38,141 nt of DNA. It comes from Verrucomicrobiota bacterium. GTDB lineage: Bacteria > Verrucomicrobiota > Verrucomicrobiia > Limisphaerales > SXTU01. The stretch lies in NCBI GenBank assembly GCA_016235545.1, contig JACRKB010000083.1, positions 1 to 38,141 of the forward strand, in the 5' to 3' direction. A program made the position numbers and the translations under genes. How positions within the stretch are numbered: position 1 is the first letter of the stretch; each line of letters starts with the position of its first letter. Below are positions 6,097 through 26,377 of the stretch, piece after piece. The notes beneath the pieces were generated by a model, which saw nothing but the letters and a program-made list of their open reading frames with translations, was not told the origin of the DNA and did not search any database.

Positions 6097-6156
6097 GGGA
6101 TGAACGCGCCCAACCACCAACCGCTCCCGTCTCCGGCCAATGGTTCCCGGCCTTTG

Positions 6157-6309
6157 CCGGGTGGAACGGGCCACCGGCCCGTTGCGGCGGGCGACCCGCC
6201 CGCCGCCCGTGCGTGCGCCGGGAACGCTGCAATTAATTCGAGCGTCTCCTGTGCCGAAGCTCGGCGGCAGGTTGCCGCCGAGAACGGCCAAGTTGGCCGT
6301 TCCACCCGG
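6157..6309. repeat. four-hairpin palindromic element, family B, copy 1
   Basis: 13-bp perfect terminal inverted repeat CCGGGTGGAACGG (6157-6169)/CCGTTCCACCCGG (6297-6309). Internal hairpins at 6165-6183, 6184-6206, 6260-6282 and 6283-6301. Confidence 0.85.
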
Positions 6310-6409
6310 GCAGAGTCCGCCCGCGCTCGTTTCAGTCGGGACGTCATCGCGACCGTGCCGGCGACTTCCAGTCGCCGTCCGTGGGCCGCGCCGGAGATGG
6401 GATGGCTAT

Positions 6410-6560
6410 GGAGTGCGGCGACTCGTCGCCGCTTTCTCCGCTTGGCCGACTTGTCGGCCAAGCAGGGCCGCGCGGAAGCGGCCCGTCGAGAACCCAGCGC
6501 GTGCAGCACTTCGACGGCGACAAGTCGCCTGCGGAAAGCGGTGACGAGTCACCGCACTCC
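6410..6560. repeat. multi-hairpin palindromic element, family C (GAC-NN-GTC cores)
   Basis: 27-bp terminal inverted repeats 6410-6436 and 6534-6560 with 2 mismatches that are compensatory within the arm hairpins. Further hairpins at 6440-6463, 6465-6484 and 6516-6529. Confidence 0.85.
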
Positions 6561-6608
6561 AAAGAGCCGCGCGCCCGCCCTGCCAACTGCGTGCGACGGT
6601 TGCGAGCC

Positions 6609-6823
6609 TTCGCCCTTCGCGGAGCGAGGGGAGAAGGTGGCCGGAGGCCGGATGAGGGGTTTCCTCCCCGTAGGAGACGACGTGAGGAGTCTCACTTCAA
6701 ATGCCGACTGCCGAGGGCGGGCTGCGGAACTCAGTGAGAGCCTCCTCACGTCGGCTCCTACCAGCCAAGGCAACCCCTCACCCCGGCCCTCTCCCCTTGC
6801 TCCGCAAAAGGAGAGGGAGAAGA
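6609..6823. repeat. nested inverted repeats: outer family D (6609-6660 / 6775-6823) around inner family E (6671-6695 / 6736-6762)
   Basis: Inner arms GTAGGAGACGACGTGAGGAGTCTCA and TGAGAGCCTCCTCACGTCGGCTCCTAC. Outer arms contain GCGGAGCGAGGGGAGA...GATGAGGGG and CCCCTCACCCC...TCTCCCCTTGCTCCGC. Confidence 0.75.
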
Positions 6824-6963
6824 CCTTCGGCGCAGTCGAGCTTCAGCAAAGCGAAACCGATTCGTGCGTAGGAACGCCCCCAGGTTCGGCGCGATGGCGT
6901 GCCGAACAGCAGCCGGGGCGGCTACGCTGCCACTACTCCTAAGCAACCATCCGCTCTCAAAGT

Positions 6964-7746
6964 ATGTCACGAGTTGTCCAACCTTCGGTTCGTGAAACAG
7001 CGTTTAGCTGTCCTCACTGCTCCGCGCTTACAACACAGTATTGGCACGCACTCTACGCGGCCGAAGTTGAAGGGGGTGACAAACTTCCATTGGTTCTTCG
7101 CGATGACCACAAAAGGAATGTTTTGGCCAATCGCGAGCTGAATGAAGTGGACAAGCAGCAGATGCTGAAGTTCTTCGAAAGGGTAAGACCTGGGCTCCCG
7201 CTGATTGAAGAGAATGAAGGAAAGTATGGGCAGCGTGTCCACAACTTGCACATTAGCAAGTGCTACAACTGCAAGAAAATCGCGGTCTGGCAGCATGAAA
7301 GGCTGCTGTTCCCGGTCACTAAAGGCGGAGTCCTACCAAACGCAGATTTGCCAGACGATGTCGCCCATGACTTCGAAGAGGCAAGAGAGATTGTAAACTC
7401 GTCACCTCGCGGCGCCGCTGCACTGCTTCGTCTTTGTGTCCAGAAGCTATGCAAGCACCTTGGTGAAGCGGGTAAGAACATAGATGACGATATTGCAAGT
7501 CTCGTAAGGAAGGGCCTCAATCCACTCGTCCAGCAGACTTTGGACATTGTGCGGGTAGTCGGAAATGAAGCCGTGCATCCAGGGACGTTAGACCTGAAGG
7601 ATGACACTGACACAGCACTTCGGCTTTTCGAACTGGTCAATGCGATTGCAGAGCAGATGATTTCGCACCCCAAAGTCGTAAGTCAGATGTATGCGAAACT
7701 ACCCGAATCCAAACGAAAAGCGATTCAGGCCCGGGACAAGAAGTAA
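6964..7746 (+). CDS. DUF4145-like domain-containing protein with zinc-binding Cys pairs
   Basis: 260 aa. CPHC and CYNC motifs, and a C-terminal segment DLPDDVAHDFEEAREIVNSSPRGAAALLRLCVQKLCKHLGEAGKNIDDDIASLVRKGLNPLVQQTLDIVRVVGNEAVHPGTLDL typical of DUF4145. Visibly lower GC than neighbours. Confidence 0.8.
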   Translation: MSRVVQPSVRETAFSCPHCSALTTQYWHALYAAEVEGGDKLPLVLRDDHKRNVLANRELNEVDKQQMLKFFERVRPGLPLIEENEGKYGQRVHNLHISKCYNCKKIAVWQHERLLFPVTKGGVLPNADLPDDVAHDFEEAREIVNSSPRGAAALLRLCVQKLCKHLGEAGKNIDDDIASLVRKGLNPLVQQTLDIVRVVGNEAVHPGTLDLKDDTDTALRLFELVNAIAEQMISHPKVVSQMYAKLPESKRKAIQARDKK

Positions 7747-9236: not shown

Positions 9237-10235
9237 ATGATTCGCTCCTTTGCCTTCACCACCCAGGGTCGCCTGCACACGCAGGATGTTGACGTCTTCC
9301 TGATGCCCACGCTGCTGGCGGACACGAACCTTTTCCTATGGGTGGACTTGGAGACACCCACGCCGGAGGAGGCCAAGACCATCTTGGAGGGAATTTTTCG
9401 TTTTCACCCGCTCTCCATCGAGGATTGCATCGCCGCCAGCCCGAATCCAAAGGTCGAGGAATACACGCCCAAGGAGGAGGACAAGTTCGCCCCCTATCTG
9501 TTCATGGTCATCCACGCGGTGGACTACAGCCGCAAGGACGGCGTGTTCGCCACCAGCGAGCTGAACTTTTTCCTCGGGAAGAATTTCCTCGTGACCTACC
9601 ACGACGCGCCCCTGCGCAGCGTCTCCGCCACCGCCGAGCGCGCCACCAAGAGCACCATGCACATCGCCCGCGCGCCCGACCGCGTCGCGCACACGCTGCT
9701 CGACTCGATCGTGGACAACTACAAGCCCGCGCTGGAGGAGCTTTCGCTGGAAATCGCCGAGCTGGAGAGCGATGTGGTGGAGCATCCGAACCAGCGGACG
9801 TTGAACAAGATCATCGGCATCAAGCGCGAGGTGCTCCACCTGCGGCAGATCATCGGCCCGCAGCAGGAGGTGCTGAAACGCTTTGCCGAGGGCGAGTTCA
9901 AGCTCATCCGCGCGCACCTCGTCCCCTACTTCCGCGACATTTACGACCGCCTCTTCCACATCGCCACGCTCGCGCAGAACTTCACCGACTCGCTCACCGG
10001 CATCCTGCACATCCACCTGAGCATGACCTCGAACAAGACCGGCGAGACGGTCAAGGCGCTGACGCTCATCACCATCGTCACCACGCCGGCCATGCTTGTG
10101 GGGACATGGTATGGGATGAACTTCGAGGGCATGCCGGAGCTGAAGTGGCTGCACGGCTACTCGTTTGTGTTCAGCCTCACCGCCTTCACCACGCTGGGAA
10201 CCTGGTGGTATGTGAAGAAGCGGAAATGGTTCTGA
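9237..10235 (+). CDS. corA: CorA family divalent cation transporter
   Basis: 332 aa with C-terminal YGMNFEGMPEL (GMN motif) between two TM segments. CorA-like cytoplasmic domain (HPLSIEDC...). Confidence 0.88.
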   Translation: MIRSFAFTTQGRLHTQDVDVFLMPTLLADTNLFLWVDLETPTPEEAKTILEGIFRFHPLSIEDCIAASPNPKVEEYTPKEEDKFAPYLFMVIHAVDYSRKDGVFATSELNFFLGKNFLVTYHDAPLRSVSATAERATKSTMHIARAPDRVAHTLLDSIVDNYKPALEELSLEIAELESDVVEHPNQRTLNKIIGIKREVLHLRQIIGPQQEVLKRFAEGEFKLIRAHLVPYFRDIYDRLFHIATLAQNFTDSLTGILHIHLSMTSNKTGETVKALTLITIVTTPAMLVGTWYGMNFEGMPELKWLHGYSFVFSLTAFTTLGTWWYVKKRKWF

Positions 10236-10308: not shown

Positions 10309-11559
10309 ATGGCCACCCCAAAATCCAGCTTCCTCGACAAGGTCCTCGGCCGCATCGGGCGGCTCGATGCCGAGGGCCTGCAGACCGTCATCCAGCGGCT
10401 CGCGCGCGAGCGGAGTTTTCTGGAGACGCTCTTCGATGTGATCGAGGACGGCGTGCTGGTCGTGGACGAGCAGGGCCGCGTCCTCTACTTCAACCAGTCC
10501 GTCACCAGCCTGCTGGGCCTCAAGCACGACGCCGACGAGGGCCAGCACATCACCCGGTTCCTGCCGGGCCTCGACTGGAAAAAACTCGCGCGCTGGGACA
10601 AGGCCGGGGGCCCGCAAGTCCTGCGGCACGAGCTGGAAGTCGAGTGGCCGCGTCCGCGCTACCTCCGCCTCTACACCGCGCCGCTGGATGGCGAGGCCAC
10701 TGGCGCGTCCGGTTTCGCGCTGATACTGCACGACGCGACCGAGGCGAGGCAGCAGACCTTCGAGGCGATAGAGAGCGAGCGGATGCAGGCGCTCACGCTG
10801 CTGGCCGCGAGCGTGGCGCACGAGATTGGCAACCCGCTCAACGCCCTGCACATCCACCTCCAGCTCATGGAGCGCGAGCTGAAGAAGCTCCGCACGCCCG
10901 ACTCCGGCCCCAAGCCCGCGCGCCTCACCCGCTACCGCCAGTCCCGCCGCGCCGACGCCGACACGGCCAGCACGGTCGAGAAGCTGCAAAGCTACCTCGA
11001 CGTCGCGAAAGGTGAGATCACGCGGCTCGACTACATCGTCTCGCAATTTCTCCAAGCCCTCCGCCCCTCGCCGCCCAAGCTCCAGCCCGCGTCGCTCAAC
11101 GTGGCCATCCGCGCGTCCCTCGACCTGCTTGGCCCCGAGCTGAAGAACCGGCATCTCCACGTCGAGCCGAAGCTGGCCGCAAGCCTCCCGCTCGCGCCGA
11201 TGGACGGCGCGCAAATCCAGCAGGTGCTGGTGAACCTCATCAAGAACGCGATGCAGGCCATGACCAAGGGCGGCACGCTCACGCTCACGACAGGCGAAGG
11301 CGCGGGCGGCGTGTGGTTCAGCATCAACGACACCGGCGGCGGCATCCCGCAGGAGCAGATCAACCGCATCTTCGAGCCGTTCTACACGACGAAGGCCAAG
11401 GGCAGCGGACTGGGCCTGATGATCGTGCAGCGCATCGTGCGCGAGCACGGCGGGCGCATCGAGCTGGAGAGCCGCGTGGACGAGGGCACCCAGTTCCGCG
11501 TCTGGCTCCCGCTGCATGACCGCAAGCCAAAGCTGCTGGAGGCCAAGCTGCATGATTGA
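10309..11559 (+). CDS. PAS-domain sensor histidine kinase (NtrB-like)
   Basis: PAS-like VIEDGVLVVDEQGRVLYFNQSVTSLLG. H-box SVAHEIGNPLNALHIHLQLM. N box VLVNLIKNAMQAM. G boxes INDTGGGIPQEQINRIFEPFYTTKAKGSGLGLMIVQRIVREHGGRIELES. Confidence 0.9.
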   Translation: MATPKSSFLDKVLGRIGRLDAEGLQTVIQRLARERSFLETLFDVIEDGVLVVDEQGRVLYFNQSVTSLLGLKHDADEGQHITRFLPGLDWKKLARWDKAGGPQVLRHELEVEWPRPRYLRLYTAPLDGEATGASGFALILHDATEARQQTFEAIESERMQALTLLAASVAHEIGNPLNALHIHLQLMERELKKLRTPDSGPKPARLTRYRQSRRADADTASTVEKLQSYLDVAKGEITRLDYIVSQFLQALRPSPPKLQPASLNVAIRASLDLLGPELKNRHLHVEPKLAASLPLAPMDGAQIQQVLVNLIKNAMQAMTKGGTLTLTTGEGAGGVWFSINDTGGGIPQEQINRIFEPFYTTKAKGSGLGLMIVQRIVREHGGRIELESRVDEGTQFRVWLPLHDRKPKLLEAKLHD

Positions 11560-26199: not shown

Positions 26200-26377
26200 A
26201 TGCCGTTGATGTCTGGGTGGAACGGGCCACCGGCCCGTTCTCGGCGGCAACCTGCCGCCGAGTTTGTTCACACGCAACGCCCAAACCAAATGGTGTGCGC
26301 TTTACGCACCACGAGCGGCGGGCGGGTCGCCCGCCGCAACGGGCCGGTGGCCCGTTCCACCCAGACTCCAACGGCAT
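26200..26377. repeat. four-hairpin palindromic element, family B, copy 2 (inverted relative to copy 1)
   Basis: About 40-bp terminal inverted repeat ATGCCGTTGATGTCTGGGTGGAACGGGCCACCGGCCCGTT with 2 mismatches. Hairpins at 26221-26239, 26240-26262, 26315-26337 and 26338-26356. Confidence 0.88.

Follow-up and report, generated by a model that had tools for sequence, protein, structure and literature searches.

The 150-bp cluster of hairpins near position 6410 of the window (the whole 38,141-nucleotide stretch from a Verrucomicrobiota bacterium analysed here) is, with high confidence, a REPIN/BIME-like non-autonomous mobile palindrome that would be mobilised in trans by a cognate REP-associated tyrosine transposase (RAYT). 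The element spans 155 bp (6408-6562), with an inverted hairpin at each end and three more between; its mobility is inferred from this anatomy. The decisive finding for its identity is a cognate transposase in its own genome (G000; 5.0 Mb, 95% complete), and the puzzling cluster is thereby explained as a member of a mobile family with an identified transposase. The element is composed of the following features.

6408-6562, no strand assigned: whole element of the 155-bp class, DTGGAGTGCGG...CCGCACTCCAH, with bounds set against 21 further complete copies from the genus
6410-6432, plus strand: left REP, tag GGAG, then T and hairpin GCGGCGAC-TC-GTCGCCGC (6415-6432), an exact match to the family pattern
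6440-6463, no strand assigned: inner hairpin GCTTGGCCGAC-TT-GTCGGCCAAGC, covarying in short-class copies as GCTTCGCC/GGCGAAGC and GCTTGGCG/CGCCAAGC
6465-6484, no strand assigned: inner hairpin GGGCCGC-GCGGAA-GCGGCCC, with GGGCC/GGCCC in the window copy and GAGCC/GGCTC in most others
6516-6529, no strand assigned: subterminal inner hairpin GGCGAC-AA-GTCGCC, from sequence inspection and copy comparison
6538-6560, minus strand: inverted right REP, tag GGAG, then T and hairpin GCGGTGAC-TC-GTCACCGC in the minus-strand reading, an exact match to the family pattern

In each REP, a single base separates the 5' GGAG tag from a hairpin of 8 bp whose loop is 2 nt long, and the end hairpin has the consensus GGAGTGCGG-YGACTNGTCR-CCGC. 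The right-end stem reads GCGGTGAC-GA-GTCACCGC in the forward direction (6538-6555). All five stems described in the first-pass annotation are present, their coordinates slightly refined to 6415-6432, 6440-6463, 6465-6484, 6516-6529 and 6538-6555, and its statement that just two positions, which pair with each other, distinguish arm 6410-6436 from arm 6534-6560 is correct (position 10, C/T; position 19, G/A). The concentration of GACNNGTC at the hairpin tips, also described there, was borne out: this palindromic core, common to four of the five hairpins, occurs 12 times in the 38-kb window, and the four occurrences with stems of 6-11 bp all fall inside the array, the other eight having stems of 3-5 bp. 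Folding of the element strand against shuffled sequences gave z -8.9 for DNA and z -10.4 for RNA; in the predicted fold the arms pair with one another, and each can alternatively form its own hairpin. GC-rich hairpins followed by TTT are found on both strands.

The element belongs to a dispersed family. A DNA search of its own genome returned 34 matches, and the pattern GGAGTGCGGYGASTNSTCRCCGC found the 23-nt end hairpin in 23 exact copies, with 0 for the reversed control pattern; the background frequency that the first-pass annotation had named as grounds for doubt was not observed. The family occupies about 13 places, with contigs C98 and C122, whose ends match, contributing a single place. 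Its copies are inverted pairs of two size classes, about 155 bp (the window, C15, C258) and about 188 bp. Across 15 long-class genus copies, identity is 93% in the first 48 columns, 90% in the last 48 and 43% in the middle; among seven short-class copies, the corresponding values are 87% and 95% for the ends and 77% for the middle. The two inverted REPs are thus the conserved ends, with 87-95% identity across the 22 complete genus copies. Variation within the end hairpin is paired, YGAC/GTCR appearing as TGAC/GTCA or CGAC/GTCG and the tip GAC-GTC also as GAG-CTC, and the inner hairpins of the short class likewise vary by compensatory changes. In the long class, the middle (e.g., L331:3282, L030:1499) varies in length by only a few bases and retains a GCTYGCGCNAGC-like core at its centre, the rest being about 35% identical between copies. 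No target-site duplication was found at the flanks of the 22 complete copies, which change from copy to copy. A rule of copy lengths in multiples of three was rejected, since lengths differ by single bases. The window copy is intergenic; gene calls in this G+C-rich genome are too unreliable for scoring every copy as extragenic or not, and the elements, being themselves open in several frames, defeat a count of intergenic copies from plain ORF predictions.

The cognate RAYT gene lies at G000:C4:10153-10689, flanked by a REPIN (9925-10107) and a REP (10758-10780) with the same hairpins as the window element, and the same REP-RAYT-REP layout recurs in two congeners (G004:C264, G007:C582). Beyond the genus, taking the Y1 genes of hairpin-bearing genomes led to a Terriglobia RAYT (L258) whose gene has exact copies of this hairpin on either side in inverted orientation, at distances of 40 and 33 bp. 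Identical hairpins, again as inverted REP copies, flank a Blastocatellia RAYT (L304), and close variants flank RAYTs in Blastocatellia (L303, L316) and Planctomycetota (L305, L314). The RAYT of a further congener, G005, has a different stem beside the gene.

It took a profile of the Terriglobia RAYT plus two relatives to find the RAYT of the own genome, which a Pfam search of the genome did not report. The protein is intact, with HYH and YVHQNPV motifs, and H70, H72 and Y131 are invariant in the clade alignment. Against the NCBIfam model for REP-associated tyrosine transposases (NF047646, cut-off 80), four relatives from other phyla scored 86.4, 86.9, 90.2 and 83.1 (the Terriglobia protein, 86.4 bits), and the own RAYT scored 76.9, just below the cut-off. 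A PDB search with the clade profile gave one match, 4ER8, the E. coli TnpA-REP (E 3.8e-8).

Other Y1 genes were encountered along the way. Pfam Y1_Tnp matches in the own genome are three short IS200-like proteins; this hairpin flanks none of them, a pair of GTAG hairpins flanks one, and an HMM built from them revealed no association of the hairpins with Y1 genes. A short IS200-like Y1 protein in the same genome (L011:1395-2001, on G000:C272) lies between inverted GTAG hairpins (GTAGCCGAGGGCAACGCCCTCGG), forming a second REP/transposase pair. A second same-clade RAYT of the own genome (L267, G000:C136:11878-12402) is preceded, at about 200 bp, by a long hairpin of different sequence (GGAGTGCGGCGGG...CCCGCCGC). 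A Methylococcaceae RAYT (L302:421-1399) is flanked by direct and inverted GGAGTGCAAGGCCTGCCTTGC hairpin arrays, closely spaced and in part regularly so (one run at 39 bp).

The end hairpin occurs in six of ten congeners and in contigs labelled Verrucomicrobia, Planctomycetes, Acidobacteria (Blastocatellia, Terriglobia), Chlamydiae, Chloroflexi, Sumerlaeota and Methylococcaceae; absence from relatives, which the first-pass annotation had listed as a contrary outcome, was not found. The hairpin-bearing relatives are mostly metagenome-assembled genomes in which single contigs may be misbinned, so that many-copy genomes (e.g., BJHT, CAIKLQ, JABDBB, CAIZPP, JAIBAN) are the safer evidence. The distribution is patchy, as only 4 of 289 sampled genomes of the phylum carry the exact hairpin. 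Genomes with a close RAYT contain 23 (G000), 5 (G004), 10 (G005) and 8 (G007) hairpins, and the seven genus genomes without one contain 0, 0, 0, 0, 9, 1 and 2. Loss of the RAYT or incomplete assembly would explain the nine hairpins of G003 without a close RAYT. A literature text search returned no paper with the 21-base hairpin forms; only the 9-base GGAGTGCGG matched, in 108 papers, and the matches listed are unrelated.

Comparison across the RAYT clade separated constant from variable parts of the REP. A GGAG[TC]GC hairpin lies within 300 bp of the gene at 22 of 35 clade RAYT loci, the remaining 13 lacking one under the rule used; the background for this rule, more than 500 bp from the gene, is 3 matches in 61 kb. 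The clade keeps the tag GGAGTGC and the closing GC throughout, and the intervening stem varies by RAYT lineage (GGCAGCTTGCTGCC, GGGACTACAGTCCC, GGTGTTTCAACACC and others, with GGAGTGCGGCAGCTTGCTGCCGC as a further example). Among 54 distinct RAYT-flanking sequences, chosen solely by tag and closing GC and thus with two closing pairs fixed, stem base pairs hold in 80% of cells versus 19-36% for slid pairings. In the end hairpin, GAG-TT-CTC replaces the core in 14 of 58 contexts; in many copies, then, it is the pairing and not the core that is conserved. The GACNNGTC core, which the first-pass annotation had taken as the common basis of the array, is accordingly a lineage-specific stem tip and does not define the element.

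A maximum-likelihood tree joined Verrucomicrobiota, Acidobacteriota and Planctomycetota RAYTs whose stems are of GAC type into one group with support of 86/81, and 60/85 in a second tree with the longest branch removed, which is only moderate support. The GAC state requires two changes on the RAYT tree versus 4-9 in 500 shuffles, or 4-7 with three congeners counted once, so that RAYT lineage and REP stem covary. Within the GAC group, the BJHT RAYT (L223/L301) is an exception, being flanked by a CCGGC stem though its genome has many GAC-type copies.

Surveys describe GTAG/GTGG, CGTC and CnGA as REP tags (PMC2817692, PMC3733652, PMC6006769). The present tag is GGAG, one nucleotide from the stem, where the canonical GTAG (or GTGG) stands 0-2 nt 5' of the hairpin; GTGG appears in a minority of contexts (40 of 209) but 3 nt from the stem, and the tag is not CGTC either. 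Almost all contexts have DTG-like bases (A, T or G, then T) ahead of GGAG, so the guide may alternatively read DTGG. In E. coli TnpA-REP, the guide-region residues are W94, Q95, E100, H101 and R104 (PMC6006769). Profile and clade alignments against 4ER8 showed that the W is kept and the E is replaced by D in most members; the H101 position is mostly threonine, and the R104 position is a threonine invariant in ten clade members (T117 and T120 of the RAYT align to H101 and R104). Such changes at GTAG-contact positions would fit an altered guide. It is tentatively proposed, at a little short of even confidence, that this multi-phylum RAYT clade reads a GGAG guide instead of GTAG, its guide pocket having been rebuilt and its stem code being specific to each lineage, and that the REP GGAGTGCGG-YGACTTGTCR-CCGC and its transposase came to be common to Verrucomicrobiota, Acidobacteriota and Planctomycetota either because RAYT and REPs moved together between phyla or because their pairing has been conserved for an unusually long time.

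The window element lies between a DUF1549/DUF1553 gene and a DUF4145 gene, in a stretch (6097-6963) that is a nest of repeat families (6157-6307, 6353-6391, the present element, the halves 6602-6660 and 6770-6819, and 6875-6931). The DUF4145 gene (6964-7746) had no match at E 1e-20 in ten congeners. The segments 6157-6307 and 26215-26362 are two window copies of a palindromic repeat of about 150 bp (GGTGGAACGG...), present in about 28 genome copies with 77-93% identity, and 6353-6391 is a separate short repeat containing CGGCGACTTCCAGTCGCCG, with about 13 genome copies. The upstream hairpin CGGCGACT-TCC-AGTCGCCG, which the first-pass annotation had put beside the array, does exist at 6359-6377 but belongs to this other repeat. 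The halves 6602-6660 and 6770-6819 are about 20 bp apart in other copies and are split here by a GTAGGAG-tagged inverted pair (6670-6761), which looks like another REPIN family inserted into an older repeat.

One family copy lies inside a gene. The copy at G000:C4:7783-7966 (L007, L331:3282-3469) is in frame within an FtsX-type ABC permease gene, contributing about 62 codons (MECGEFSPLSAGDLSPS...DGDKSPAESGDKSPHS) to a protein that has two FtsX stretches and is about 990 residues long. The ortholog in the congener G004 (70% identity over the alignment) is without the REPIN and has an unrelated linker there rather than a clean empty site; the FtsX-gene copy is a presence/absence difference in an orthologous gene. 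REPs inside genes are known (PMC3733652).

The first-pass annotation had left open a protein-binding array, a structured RNA or a mobile palindrome, of which the mobile palindrome is favoured by the dispersed copies, the conserved ends with a variable middle, and the cognate RAYT with these hairpins on either side. A structured RNA, or a bidirectional terminator or mRNA-stability element kept for a host function with its spread secondary, would account for the very stable RNA fold (z -10.4), the compensatory changes, the GC-rich hairpins with TTT on both strands and the intergenic position of the window copy. Such an origin is nevertheless quite unlikely: no Rfam match in the window exceeded the gathering threshold, the middle varies freely (43% identity), one copy is read in frame in the FtsX permease gene, and a host RNA function does not predict that the same hairpins bracket RAYT genes in several phyla.

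The size and inverted ends also resemble a classical MITE of a DDE transposon, with terminal inverted repeats recognised as duplex DNA and a target-site duplication, and several left flanks read TA. The flanks of the 22 complete copies nevertheless hold no direct repeat, each end is itself a covarying hairpin, as HUH enzymes need, and the gene between such ends is a Y1 RAYT, leaving the MITE reading highly improbable. Hardly more credible is an array whose GACNNGTC motifs are recognised by a DNA-binding protein or methylase of the host, suggested by the presence of this palindromic motif in four of five hairpins; the frequent GAG-TT-CTC end hairpins keep the pairing and lose the core, and relatives retain tag and pairing with unrelated cores. 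Protein binding holds only in the sense of a transposase substrate.

On the favoured reading as a RAYT-mobilised palindrome, the RAYT would bind the hairpins when the DNA is single-stranded, for instance in the lagging-strand template. The enzyme, an HUH/Y1 nuclease related to E. coli TnpA-REP, would be guided by the tag to cut at the foot of each hairpin, and the stretch between two inverted REPs would be excised or copied and re-inserted elsewhere without target duplication. The cognate RAYT would work in trans from contig C4 of the same genome, and the gene-free window copy is probably a passenger between the DUF1549/DUF1553 and DUF4145 genes. The hairpins may incidentally act in RNA, for instance as a terminator or stability element. 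Small ORFs of the type MECG(D/E)LSPLSAGDLSPS in these genomes are explained as created by such elements. A RAYT series with a constant tag and differing cognate stems makes the recognition code testable, in terms of residues reading the tag versus the stem.

The REP/REPIN kind is already known, and the GGAG tag with its RAYT clade looks like a variant absent from the surveys compared, extending REP/RAYT biology to a further tag. REPINs (Bertels and Rainey 2011, PMC3116915) likewise have two inverted REPs as conserved ends around a variable spacer, fold to one hairpin as a unit, are dispersed and are linked to RAYTs. The present element differs in its GGAG tag, its length of 155-188 bp with extra inner hairpins and its low copy number (about 13), and REPIN excision was evidenced by population sequencing, whereas the present case is known from sequence anatomy. 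GTAG REPs and REPtrons (Nunvar 2010, PMC2817692; Di Nocera 2013, PMC3733652) share the tag and hairpin, the RAYT gene between inverted REPs, the co-variation of RAYT and REP, the complementary changes that keep palindromicity and the occasional intragenic copy; these surveys report GTAG/GTGG (or CGTC) tags, and their main text yielded no REP tagged GGAGTGC. The copy read in frame in a protein gene, unlike the window copy between genes, resembles Rickettsia palindromic elements and other intragenic REPs. TnpA-REP subclasses (PMC6006769) have the same HUH-Y1 core; the NHYH and YxHxNP motifs resemble those of subclasses 2.6 and 2.8, and some subclasses are flanked by atypical hairpins, as here. 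The own RAYT clade appears set apart by the subclass descriptions, none of which joins NHYH, YVHQNP, a length of about 180 aa, an N-terminal WPHAP, GGAG REPs and a range covering Verrucomicrobiota, Acidobacteriota and Planctomycetota.
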